Origin: a virus
DNA length: 32,207 nt
Direction: 5' to 3' (one strand)
Virus record (IMG/VR): IMGVR_UViG_3300030202_001152
Span: 1-32,207 of that record
Shown here: positions 5,042-10,563 of the stretch, one piece after another
Position numbering within the stretch: the first letter of the stretch is position 1
Layout: each line of letters starts with the position of its first letter
The notes under the pieces: model-generated
Databases searched by the model: none
Seen by the model: only the letters and a program-made list of their open reading frames with translations
Told to the model about the DNA's origin: nothing
Position numbers and translations under genes: made by a program

Positions 5042-5750
5042 ACTCTACAATATTTGATGTGTTCCACTCTATAGATTTATCAATAGTTTCATTGATGATA
5101 TTAAAATGCCCACAAGTATAAAAACCACTATTACCACCAGTGTAAGATTCGCTAGCAGGATGAGCAGCTTTAAGAATAGTTTGATTCCCTCTAATATATT
5201 GTTCATATGCTTGTGCTTTTTTACCCCACAGCACAAAAACAAGATTAGATTTATTTCTAGATAACATTTCTATAAACATTCTTGTAAAATCTTTCCATAA
5301 CTCTGTATGTGATCCGGCTTTACCTTGTTCTACAGTCAATGCTGTGTTAAGTAACAACACACCCTGTCTTGCCCAACTCTCTAATGATACATCTATATCT
5401 AACAATCCTTTTACATTTACTTCATGCTTGTTACCATAATCTATTTCTACAGCTGTGATTATATTCTTTAAACTTGGACTAACTTTACGTGTACCTGTAC
5501 GATTGGCAAACGCTAGTCCTGTTGCGCTACCATCATGATACGGATCTTGTCCCAATATTACAACTCTTACATCTTTTAGTGGACATAATCTAAATGCCTT
5601 AAATGTTCTAGATGTCTCCGGTAATATTGTTACACCTGCAGCTCTACGATCTCTAATATGTGCTGCTATTTTTTGAAACGTTTTTGTTTGTAGGATAGGT
5701 AACAACATTGGATACCAGTCTCCTAATTGACTTTGCATTATTTTACTCAT
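5025..5750 (-). CDS. ung: Uracil-DNA glycosylase, family 1
   Basis: This enzyme removes uracil from DNA, starting base-excision repair. The water-activating loop GQDPYHDGSATGLAFA carries the catalytic Asp, LLNTALTVEQGKAGSH matches the uracil-recognition region, and AAHPASESYTGG plus GFYTCGHFNIIN corresponds to the His-Pro leucine-loop block. The DNA-intercalating loop departs from the canonical HPSPLS, reading HPASES, so the Leu plug is not obvious. The frame is open from 5789, but ATG 5750 (MSKIMQSQLGDWYPML) matches the usual enzyme N-terminus (241 aa) and has a good A/T-rich leader; the upstream extension would overlap an inverted repeat. It lies directly after the polymerase gene. crAss-like phages also carry this enzyme, possibly to clear misincorporated dUMP. 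Confidence 0.92.
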   Translation of the reverse strand: MSKIMQSQLGDWYPMLLPILQTKTFQKIAAHIRDRRAAGVTILPETSRTFKAFRLCPLKDVRVVILGQDPYHDGSATGLAFANRTGTRKVSPSLKNIITAVEIDYGNKHEVNVKGLLDIDVSLESWARQGVLLLNTALTVEQGKAGSHTELWKDFTRMFIEMLSRNKSNLVFVLWGKKAQAYEQYIRGNQTILKAAHPASESYTGGNSGFYTCGHFNIINETIDKSIEWNTSNIVEYEGGN

Positions 5751-5843: not shown

Positions 5844-7742
5844 TTATTTTTCCCAGCAATTACTTACTGTTACTTCGGCTTTTAATAAGCCATTACTTAC
5901 AATCTCCAAAGCTGCCTGTTCCATTAGACCTTTCATAACTACAGCCCAATCAGACACCTGATCATTTCTACATATAGTATCTATCTGATCATGCACAGTC
6001 ATTACCACTTTAACCGGTAAATTATGTGCAGCTACATAATCTCTAATAAATACCAATGCCTTCTTAGTCATATCTGCAGATGCACCCTGTATAGGTGTGT
6101 TCTTGCTAGCACGCTCGATGCTACCCAGCTCCATGACTGACGATTTGTTATTCCAAATCTTTGGATACCATGTACTAAACCACCTCTTACGATTATATGG
6201 TGGGAAAGTTTTTATGTACCCAAACTTTTTACCAAAGTTACCTAGCTTATCTAGGAACCCTTTGATTGCCGGGAACGCTTGGAAATACTTTTCGATGAGG
6301 ACTTTAGCTCCGTCCACACTGATGTTAAGAGTATCAGCAAGCTTATTAGGGCCCATGCCATAAGCAAGCCCGAAATTAATAGTTTTGACATTTGTTCTCA
6401 ATTTTTTATGCTTTGGACAATTACATTTCATTCTAAGTTTCATGTAAGCGCAATCATCCTCTGCTGCATTTAACCATTCTTCTCCATAAACTAACTCTGC
6501 ACACGTAGAGTGTAAGTCTTCATTATTTTGTAGTGCTTTTATCCATACAGGATCCTTAGAACCAAATGCAATTACATTTAACTCCTGTGAACTGTAGTCT
6601 GCACTAACAAAACTCCAACCATCTGGCGCAGTAAAGCAATTCCTGTAAATATTATCTGCAGGTATCTGCTGCATATTAGGTTTACTACTACTTACACGAC
6701 CGGTGTCTAGTATCTGATGAAAGTTTGTATGTATTTTATTATCACTTGATAGGTTTTTAAAGAATGCATCACCATACGATGTGCATAATTTCATAGCCTC
6801 TTTATATTTTACATACTTGTCAATCAATGGATACTGAAATCTATACTTATACATTTGCTTACCATTTACATTATCTAGCTTTGGCACAAGACACTGAAAT
6901 ACTTCCAACACCTGTTTAGGTGATGTCCATTTTATATCTATCTTTCTCAAATCTTCTACCGCTGTAAACAAATCTGCTTGTACATATTTAGATACAAATC
7001 TATCTAGACGAGGATCAAGTGTAACCATATGATCCAAACTATCTTGTAAATTATCAGCTTTTTCTGTGTTAACTTTCTCAATCTTCTTCCAACTCTCTGA
7101 ATCTAAATCCAAACCATTGTACTCGATGTCTGCAAATGCTAGCACAACTTCATTCTCAAGATCAATAACTCTATTGAGTTGGTTTCTATCTACAAGTGGC
7201 AACTGATGTGTACGTATCTTTATCAAATACTCTACATCTTTTGCACCATACACAATCTGATTATCTGTAAATGGTTTGCTAGCTAGTCCTATAAATTTAC
7301 TACGCACCTCTTTATCTAGATCTACATCCAAATATCTTTTGCATACATCTTTCAGACCATAACCATAGTTTTGTTTACCACAGTTTAGCACACGCTCTAC
7401 CAAATATGTGTCATAGATACCTTCACATATAATATCTGACCACTTTTTAATAAACTTGTAGTCAAACTTTGCATTATGAAATATCTTTAGAATGTTTTTG
7501 TTTTGTAATATATTACGTAGTGGTTCAATGCTGACACGTCTAGTGTCAATAACAAACTGCTGATTTTCGTCACCAATCTGAAACATAATCATCTTCTTAG
7601 TAGTAAAATCAAAGCCCTCAGTCTCTGTGTCTACACCAAGTATCTGTTTTGTTTGACAATACCTTACCACATCATCAATCATTGCTGACTGATAATGCGG
7701 AGAAGGTACAGTTTTTGATGAACCATCTACTAAATGTATCAT
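5844..7742 (-). CDS. Family A DNA polymerase with 3'-5' exonuclease
   Basis: This 632-aa replicative polymerase belongs to the Pol I/T7 gp5 family. The N-terminal proofreading domain has Exo I (GVDTETEGFDF), Exo II (FHNAKFDYKFI) and Exo III (YGAKDVEYL) with all four acidic metal ligands. In the polymerase domain, motif A is SADYSSQELNVIA, motif B is RTNVKTINFGLAYGMG and motif C is VVMTVHDQIDT. The O-helix neighbour NTPIQGASADMTK is also conserved. Motif C reads HDQ rather than the usual HDE, keeping the catalytic Asp but changing the next carboxylate. No 5'-3' exonuclease domain is present, as in T7. The gene starts with ATGA overlapping the stop of the 83-aa gene upstream. This is the main replicase of the phage. 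Confidence 0.95.
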   Translation of the reverse strand: MIHLVDGSSKTVPSPHYQSAMIDDVVRYCQTKQILGVDTETEGFDFTTKKMIMFQIGDENQQFVIDTRRVSIEPLRNILQNKNILKIFHNAKFDYKFIKKWSDIICEGIYDTYLVERVLNCGKQNYGYGLKDVCKRYLDVDLDKEVRSKFIGLASKPFTDNQIVYGAKDVEYLIKIRTHQLPLVDRNQLNRVIDLENEVVLAFADIEYNGLDLDSESWKKIEKVNTEKADNLQDSLDHMVTLDPRLDRFVSKYVQADLFTAVEDLRKIDIKWTSPKQVLEVFQCLVPKLDNVNGKQMYKYRFQYPLIDKYVKYKEAMKLCTSYGDAFFKNLSSDNKIHTNFHQILDTGRVSSSKPNMQQIPADNIYRNCFTAPDGWSFVSADYSSQELNVIAFGSKDPVWIKALQNNEDLHSTCAELVYGEEWLNAAEDDCAYMKLRMKCNCPKHKKLRTNVKTINFGLAYGMGPNKLADTLNISVDGAKVLIEKYFQAFPAIKGFLDKLGNFGKKFGYIKTFPPYNRKRWFSTWYPKIWNNKSSVMELGSIERASKNTPIQGASADMTKKALVFIRDYVAAHNLPVKVVMTVHDQIDTICRNDQVSDWAVVMKGLMEQAALEIVSNGLLKAEVTVSNCWEK

Positions 7743-8358: not shown

Positions 8359-8598
8359 TTATCTATTATTTATTTCTATAAAACGTTGTTCTATACCACT
8401 TGATTTTGTATTCCTAGTAGGTATGCCTGGATGAAATCCAAACTGCATCTGAAATGTTAAATCCTCATTTATAATCTTAGGTATTTCAACTGTTTTAATT
8501 ATTTTTTCTCTAATTATTTTCTTTCCCTGAAAAATAATCTCTTCATTTACCACTGTACGTTTTACTATACGTGGTATCGTTCTATCATATCGTATCAT
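8359..8598 (-). CDS. Unknown 79-aa basic protein
   Basis: This 79-aa protein has no family I recognise. The N-terminal half is rich in alternating basic and beta-branched residues (RIVKRTVVNEEIIFQGKK, then IIREKIIKTVEIPKI), a pattern typical of a small beta-rich fold. The C-terminal half contains QMQFGFHPGIPTRNTKSSG. No cysteines, signal peptide or membrane helix are visible. It is the first gene after the structured RNA at 8617-8722, with only 18 nt between the last paired base and its ATG. Its translation could therefore be affected by that structure; this is inference. Confidence 0.65.
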   Translation of the reverse strand: MIRYDRTIPRIVKRTVVNEEIIFQGKKIIREKIIKTVEIPKIINEDLTFQMQFGFHPGIPTRNTKSSGIEQRFIEINNR

Positions 8599-8616
8599 AA
8601 ACTTATTTTAAATTAT

Positions 8617-8722
8617 GTACAAGACAATGGGAAACGGTAGGCTCTCTTGCTCCGTTGTTAATAAGGACACCGCGCGCAGTGCCTGTTGTCGATTGTTATT
8701 CTCGTCTCCCATTATCTTATAC
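8617..8722 (-). ncRNA. Candidate structured RNA, three-way junction
   Basis: Bases 8617-8632 pair with 8707-8722. On the plus strand this stem has two C/A mismatches (8620/8719, 8625/8714), but in minus-strand RNA both become G-U, giving an uninterrupted 16-bp helix. Directly inside it, 8633-8637 pairs with 8652-8656. A second arm pairs 8664-8666 and 8668-8670 with 8682-8684 and 8679-8681, closed by a third minus-strand G-U (8671/8678) and capped by the self-complementary loop GCGCGC. The region has no credible reading frame. It does not match a tRNA, tmRNA or any riboswitch I know. It could be a free ncRNA or a cis element of the leftward operon. Confidence 0.6.
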
Positions 8723-8747
8723 TAATACACAGATTGCGTCTGTATTA
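8723..8747 (-). promoter_or_regulatory. Hairpin abutting the 196-aa gene stop and the structured RNA
   Basis: TAATAC (8723-8728) pairs with GTATTA (8742-8747), and AGA (8731-8733) pairs with TCT (8739-8741), with a 2-nt bulge and a 5-nt loop. The hairpin starts at the stop codon of the 196-aa gene and ends where the 16-bp stem of the neighbouring RNA begins, so the two could stack. No U-run follows on the minus strand, so a processing or stabilising role is more likely than termination. Confidence 0.45.
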
Positions 8748-9338
8748 TTATAGCATCATGTCTGCCATGTCCTGCACTTGAGTCTCAACAACCTCGTTGA
8801 CTCTATCATGCTGAACAAATGTGTGAGAAGGCTCGCTTATAGTCATCTTAGTGTTTCTATAAATCTTTTGCCCATCTTTCAATAAGATCTCACCTGTTGC
8901 AGGATTAACTTTATGCCCTACACCATTAGCTTTTTGCCAGTCTGTTGGTGTAGTTGTCTCTGTAATCTCAACTCTAAGTTTATTACCATTAAACTCAGGA
9001 TTAAGAATGTTAAGAGGTACAACTTGTCTAACTTTACCTGACTTACTAGTTACAGATACAAACTCTGAGTTCTCAATATCAAGTCCATCGATATTAAGTA
9101 AAGTCTCTACGTCTGTTATTGTAGCTGGAACCCAAGTGTATGTTTTACTACCTCTTTGGAATCTTGGATCGCTAGCGTTCATCATTGCTAGCACATCATC
9201 TGTACCATTACCGCCACGATTAATATGTTCTACAAACTCAGCTCTGTAACCACCATTTGCAGTCTTTTCTACGTGAGTTAGTATTACGTCGTCTACTTTT
9301 AGAGTGTCTAGACTACCACTATTTAATTGATTTGCCAT
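8748..9338 (-). CDS. Unknown 196-aa early-type phage protein
   Basis: This 196-aa protein is not a family I can name, though I recall similar proteins in Bacteroidetes phages, usually hypothetical. It contains MMNASDPRFQRGSKTYTW near residue 55 and a segment on altered residues and metal-free beta strands; the C-terminus (VNEVVETQVQDMADMML) is acidic. There are no cysteines. I chose ATG 9338 (MANQLNSGSLDTL) instead of the upstream 9422, because 9338 follows an A-rich leader typical of this genome, and the upstream 28 residues have low-complexity Lys/Asn/His composition. The gene stands alone between two long non-coding regions, which suggests separate and possibly strong regulation. A ssDNA-binding or nucleoid-type role is a guess. 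Confidence 0.75.
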   Translation of the reverse strand: MANQLNSGSLDTLKVDDVILTHVEKTANGGYRAEFVEHINRGGNGTDDVLAMMNASDPRFQRGSKTYTWVPATITDVETLLNIDGLDIENSEFVSVTSKSGKVRQVVPLNILNPEFNGNKLRVEITETTTPTDWQKANGVGHKVNPATGEILLKDGQKIYRNTKMTISEPSHTFVQHDRVNEVVETQVQDMADMML

Positions 9339-10306: not shown

Positions 10307-10556
10307 AACATTATTCATCCCCCGGTAACCAAAAAAGGGATTAGACATCGGATTGTAGTCTCAAATAGAGATAGAGTTTTCTCCGGTAGTTGCAAAAGAG
10401 TTAAGGTATAAGCTCTAGTTAGGATACAATGCACACAGGTAAGTGCGATGAATTAACATTAGTTTTAGTATCCTTGGGTCCCGTAAAACGGAGCACTGCT
10501 AGAGTGAAATCACAACTTGAAAAAGAATCCTCAAGGGGGAGAGCTATATTTTCTCC
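10307..10556 (+). ncRNA. Candidate structured leader RNA or sRNA upstream of groES
   Basis: About 250 non-coding nt show nested pairing. TCCCCC (10318-10323) pairs with GGGGGA (10535-10540) and encloses everything else. Inside, 10412-10419 pairs with 10498-10505 (six Watson-Crick pairs plus terminal G-U pairs valid only in plus-strand RNA). Within that, AGGATAC (10421-10427) pairs with GTATCCT (10468-10474), GCAC (10431-10434) with GTGC (10443-10446), and CCGT (10481-10484) with ACGG (10488-10491). CTTGA (10516-10520) can pair with TCAAG (10531-10535). The closing stem competes with GGAGA (10538-10542) and TCTCC (10552-10556), so it could switch. There is no U-run, so it either reads through to groES or is processed. 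I do not recognise the family. Confidence 0.5.
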
Positions 10557-10563
10557 ACAGATA

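Follow-up and report, generated by a model that had tools for sequence, protein, structure and literature searches.

The window, as we call the full 32,207-nt stretch analysed here (positions 1–32,207 of IMG/VR record IMGVR_UViG_3300030202_001152, whose numbering is used throughout), is, judging by its genes, a piece of a crAss-like phage genome: its capsid gene matches PF23898 Crass_capsid (9e-82), and its terminase shows approximately 39–42% identity to its nearest relatives, which are crAss-like and other uncultured gut phages. Bacteroidetes are named as the hosts of Crassvirales in PMC10136315. On the minus strand, a leftward operon contains a gene for a 196-aa protein (MANQLNSG..., 8748–9338), a structured RNA element (8617–8722), a 79-aa gene (8359–8598) whose ATG lies 18 nt past the stem of the element and, further downstream, the DNA polymerase gene (5844–7742), which served as bait for relatives. 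Neither flanking gene has a family match; the 196-aa protein is modelled as all-beta by AlphaFold, and a Foldseek search with this model returned weak matches resembling single-strand-binding proteins, none of them firm. Directly 3′ of the upstream gene lies a small hairpin, CAGACGCAATCTG (CAGAY..GCAATCTG, 8730–8742, minus strand), which is kept, with a variable loop, in relatives both with and without the RNA. We found no promoter belonging to the RNA element itself, and no tRNA or tmRNA at its position.

The element is built from a closing stem, P1, and an inner arm, P2, both variable, around a nearly invariant asymmetric junction with AAUC on one side and CAACGGAGCARGAGAGCC opposite. Starting from the outside, P1 pairs GTATAAGATAATGGGAGACG (8722–8703, minus strand) with CGTTTCCCATTGTCTTGTAC (8636–8617). 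A preliminary description had given this stem 16 bp, with two plus-strand mismatches that become G-U pairs in the minus-strand RNA; the stem and its wobble pairs stand, folded and conserved, with the length corrected to 20 bp (8617–8636 with 8703–8722) and the count to three U-G or G-U pairs, formed in minus-strand RNA only. Core strand a (AACAATC, 8691–8697, minus strand), in which AATC is invariant across both phage groups described below, leads into P2 (8666–8683), a 7-bp arm (8666–8672 with 8677–8683) capped by the self-complementary loop CGCG (8673–8676). The wobble pair noted earlier at 8671/8678 is present, and P2 has a further one at 8667/8682. The opposite side of the junction is core strand b, CAACGGAGCAAGAGAGCC (8640–8657, minus strand). 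Of the two inner arms in the preliminary description, P2 holds; the second comes down to GG..CC around GGAGCAAGAGAGCC, as part of a possible mini-hairpin, GGAGC-AAGA-GAGCC, inside core strand b (8640–8653, minus strand). A dedicated scan with free GG/CC positions found no variation at these pairs among true members, and this helix is unproven because its pairs never vary.

Folding the minus strand of 8599–8750 gives −46.7 kcal/mol (z −5.36), a value matched by none of 200 shuffles, compared with −35.9 kcal/mol (z −2.16; 7 of 200 shuffles as good) for the plus strand. Across eight distinct relatives, 205 of 207 P1 and P2 cells are paired when read on the minus strand versus 165 of 207 on the opposite strand, which bears out, as the folding does, the earlier proposal of strand-specific wobble and of a functional leftward transcript.

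Relatives of the element fall into two classes. Searching IMG/VR contigs for the core pattern and for the polymerase and upstream genes, we identified class A, which consists of 11 more contigs, from related crAss-like phages, that have the RNA in the slot it occupies in the window; at the RNA locus, one of them is identical to the window. In an alignment of eight distinct class A sequences (A5), 99.1% of cells are standard pairs, compared with 41–55% in slid controls (39–65% over the slid controls as a whole), and three pairs show changes on both sides. In P1, G-C/A-U compensatory changes occur at three pairs. All P2 cells in class A are paired; one pair varies among C-G, U-A and U-G and another between A-U and G-U. 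In two relatives, P1 and the core are separated by a further small hairpin, TTTGCAAC...GTTGCA, and insertions of this sort are typical of RNA. In crAss-like relatives, the same slot can hold other elements as well: contig L034 has two tandem stem-closed RNA elements (approximately 1225–1456), the second of the window type, and L047 (approximately 5270–5353), L049 and L051 combine a homologous closing stem with another structured core (GGGAGGAAAA...CAGTGCTCCC). The slot may collect RNA modules.

Class B emerged from scans of viral contigs for ACGGAGCAAGAGAGCC, CAACGGAGCNNGAGNGCCNA and the pattern with free GG/CC positions. It comprises approximately 36 contigs of unrelated siphophages, whose terminase is nearest (approximately 40%) to those of phages of Bacteroides and Phocaeicola, and it repeats the same design of closing stem, AATC strand, inner arm and CAACGGAGCARGAGAGCC. 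P1 differs from that of the window (GAGGGGTGT/ACACCCCTC, AGGGGATC/GATCCCCT, GGGGGGTC/GACCCCCC and others), as does the inner arm, whereas the AAUC strand and, with one A/G position, the 18-nt strand are as in class A. Pairing is kept here too (95.7% of cells), and compensatory changes thus accompany the proposed fold in both sets of homologues; 6 pairs show double changes, and double-change cells number 21 versus 7.5 ± 2.0 in shuffles (0 of 500). When a covariance model was made from class B sequences only and run over 752 kb, it recovered the window (31.5 bits, E = 7.5e-5) together with 10 other class A loci; its top unrelated match has E = 0.46. A joint alignment of the two classes, fitted to the class B model, places P2 of class A wrongly, and its figures do not count as main evidence here. 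The phages of the two classes have no common capsid or terminase lineage, and their helices are all rewritten while the 18-nt unpaired core is kept, which points to strong selection on the shape of the RNA. Further downstream of the class B RNA, a gene in contig L119 (2507–2932), which has homologues, is a putative small-nuclease gene (MNHNQKGCYAEYHFASTVIALGYNVSMPL...).

Given the fold z-scores, the strand-specific wobble, the covariation and the recovery of class A by a model built only from class B, it is nearly certain from these comparisons that the element functions as a minus-strand RNA. Its invariant part, to judge by the alignments, is the unpaired core rather than the arms, and the conserved positions are unpaired ones, a pattern also seen in centres of binding or catalysis. 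The 26 distinct members found all have the same core strand b save for the one A/G position, an invariance that is partly ascertained because the scans demanded most of the core word as seed; looser patterns and the covariance model revealed no near variants in 80 crAss-like polymerase loci and 80 siphophage capsid loci. Members of the family are approximately 90–130 nt long and lie inside phage operons, sense to the neighbouring genes, with at most one copy found per record. The core was not found in cultured phages and plasmids. Across the contigs of 84,980 bacterial genomes, its 18 nt have two exact matches, one inside an open reading frame (L152) and one in apparently coding sequence (L153), with no CRISPR-like repeat array at either; we consider both to be unrelated chance matches.

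As the preliminary description had suspected, the layout is unlike that of any RNA family in Rfam. The window has no match at the gathering score and noise only up to E = 10, and searches at permissive E-values gave no credible match for the window, L119 or L242, a contig described below. A full-text literature search found no paper on the motif. On these grounds, we regard the element as a new RNA family that resembles no catalogued one, the comparison covering Rfam. Among the entries of the survey PMC2864571 is a marine motif, Ocean-VI, that has no Rfam entry.

The P2 loop is self-complementary in all members, as CGCG in class A and as GUAC, GCGC or GCGU in class B. The arm was previously drawn with a loop of GCGCGC that could dimerise; self-complementarity extends to both classes, the loop itself is CGCG and a dimer fits but is unproven. 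Natural changes keep the loop self-pairing: a double one turns GUAC into GCGC, and a single one gives GCGU, with wobble. By chance, 36 of the 256 four-letter words are self-complementary, and the loop variants are few (three, all in one class). Two copies of the RNA may pair through P2. A single 59-kb phage contig, L242, contains GTACCT-CAACGGAGCAGGAGAGCCTA...CAATCA-AGGTAC, that is, both core strands and P2 in permuted order, with a short stretch between the strands that could form a weak hairpin. This apparently permuted core lies within approximately 650 nt of non-coding sequence (190–860) that has no Rfam match. We found no relatives of this case, and the existence of a circularly permuted form is suggestive only.

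Throughout the family, the RNA sits directly past a stop codon, between co-directional genes and as a rule 16–40 nt upstream of a start codon, with neighbours that vary both upstream (the 196-aa crAss gene or a 118-aa, 60-aa or 78-aa gene) and downstream (79-, 46-, 43-, 89- and 90-aa genes). The 60-aa gene (MYFN.HHYETLNPDAYWDR...) and the RNA recur as a pair, with the RNA after the gene, at several genome positions, and close relatives of the class B phages have another small gene, without the RNA, ahead of the same 46-aa gene. From this arrangement, we infer that the RNA is an accessory, exchangeable cassette, its mobility and accessory status being drawn from a few dozen metagenomic contigs. 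The changing neighbours and the exchangeable slot make it less likely that the RNA is a switch dedicated to a single gene.

The window contains a second conserved RNA, a covarying structured leader (10425–10562, plus strand) of the rightward terminase and structural operon. Its 24 distinct sequences, from the window and 23 crAss-like relatives, have a mean column identity of 80%, six pairs with double changes and the conserved words GCACACAGGTAAGTGC, G.TGAATTAACA.. and TATCCTTGGGTCCC...GGAGCACTGCTAGA...CCAAGGGGGA. With no Rfam match up to E = 10, it is by this comparison an unclassified RNA, and more widespread than the RNA at 8617–8722.

Patchy presence, neighbours that change and a core both unpaired and invariant lead us to favour, with a probability of approximately 0.4, a phage RNA that is accessory and acts in trans, its core binding a host factor, possibly in dimeric form. 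Such an RNA would be cut out of the polycistronic mRNA or remain stable within it; its junction would grip a protein or an RNA of the Bacteroidota host, and the phage RNA would probably serve as a decoy or inhibitor that aids infection. The self-complementary P2 loop may join two copies and so present two cores. The main rival is a generic element acting in cis, an antitermination, processing or stabilising signal for RNA polymerase, nuclease or ribosome, whatever the next gene. The position of the RNA suits action in cis on the mRNA just as well, given that the genes on both sides run in one direction and that we found no separate promoter for it; the RNA is invariably sense to the operon genes that flank it, follows a stop codon and usually lies close upstream of a start codon. 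Moreover, the slot is occupied in more distant crAss-like relatives by plain terminator-like hairpins, some followed by promoter-like TATATTTG words, and it therefore resembles a transcription control point. Yet such an element would be expected in most relatives and is missing from close ones, and the core is conserved far beyond the needs of simple processing hairpins, so that we hold the cis reading to be plausible without being probable. In the next rival, a self-cleaving ribozyme of a new class, the invariant junction would form the active site, framed by P1 and P2. In its favour, an unvarying junction is flanked by two helices that are free in sequence, and small ribozymes are often circularly permuted, as L242 seems to be; however, the ribozymes in Rfam give no match at E ≤ 10 and the permuted case is a lone contig without a confirming relative, which leaves this reading improbable.

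A riboswitch, that is, a metabolite sensor controlling the next gene, would account for the location just 5′ of start codons and for a conserved, aptamer-like junction, but the downstream genes are small, mutually unrelated and of no common known function, and the two classes share no expression platform, making it very unlikely. The terminator-like hairpins of distant relatives, from one of which the lower stem may descend, raise the further idea that the upstream gene simply ends here in an ordinary intrinsic terminator. We rejected this reading for want of a U-run after the stem at 8617; class B likewise has none past the stem, and a 66-nt loop with an invariant core would be hard to reconcile with a terminator, for which the odds appear slim indeed. 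Least credible of all is that the locus has no RNA and is instead a translated small open reading frame or a DNA-level inverted repeat. A 34-aa frame (ATG at 8712) does run through the element in the window, but the corresponding frames in relatives encode 17–48 aa, shift in phase and give no conserved peptide, on which basis the coding reading was discarded, and for either version the dependence of the stem on G-U pairs counts against it.

Among known systems, the pRNA of phage phi29 is a phage RNA whose 5′ and 3′ ends are closed by a helix and whose copies associate by loop pairing. The window RNA is similar in size, has an end-closing helix and possibly pairs between copies through its loop. 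It differs in that the Rfam pRNA family does not match it (up to E = 10), the window phage and the class B phages encode ordinary terminases, and its loop is self-complementary, whereas pRNA uses two complementary loops. The RNA anti-CRISPRs (Racrs) are also small phage RNAs in accessory positions and act as molecular mimics, being copies of CRISPR repeats (PMC10651486); the core word of the new RNA, by contrast, has exact matches in no repeat array among the 84,980 genomes. The manA, wcaG and PhotoRC motifs, described in PMC2864571 as phage-carried, mostly metagenomic candidate structured RNAs linked to particular metabolic or photosynthesis genes, are in Rfam, yet do not match the window RNA. 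Hammerhead, twister, pistol, hatchet and other small ribozymes resemble it in having an invariant junction between free helices, and possibly in circular permutation, but the new RNA matches none of them in Rfam.

Structured RNAs in phages are, as a broad notion, already familiar. To our knowledge, few phage-encoded RNAs have a conserved core, and those known have each opened a topic of their own, in packaging, anti-CRISPR mimicry and host reprogramming. With a covariance model, a fixed core and cassette boundaries, the present family is defined well enough for bench tests. More tentatively, it may represent a widespread RNA module of Bacteroidota viruses that passes as a cassette between unrelated phages and also occurs permuted, and that would, as a dimer, inhibit a function or a defence of the host, or else be a new ribozyme.
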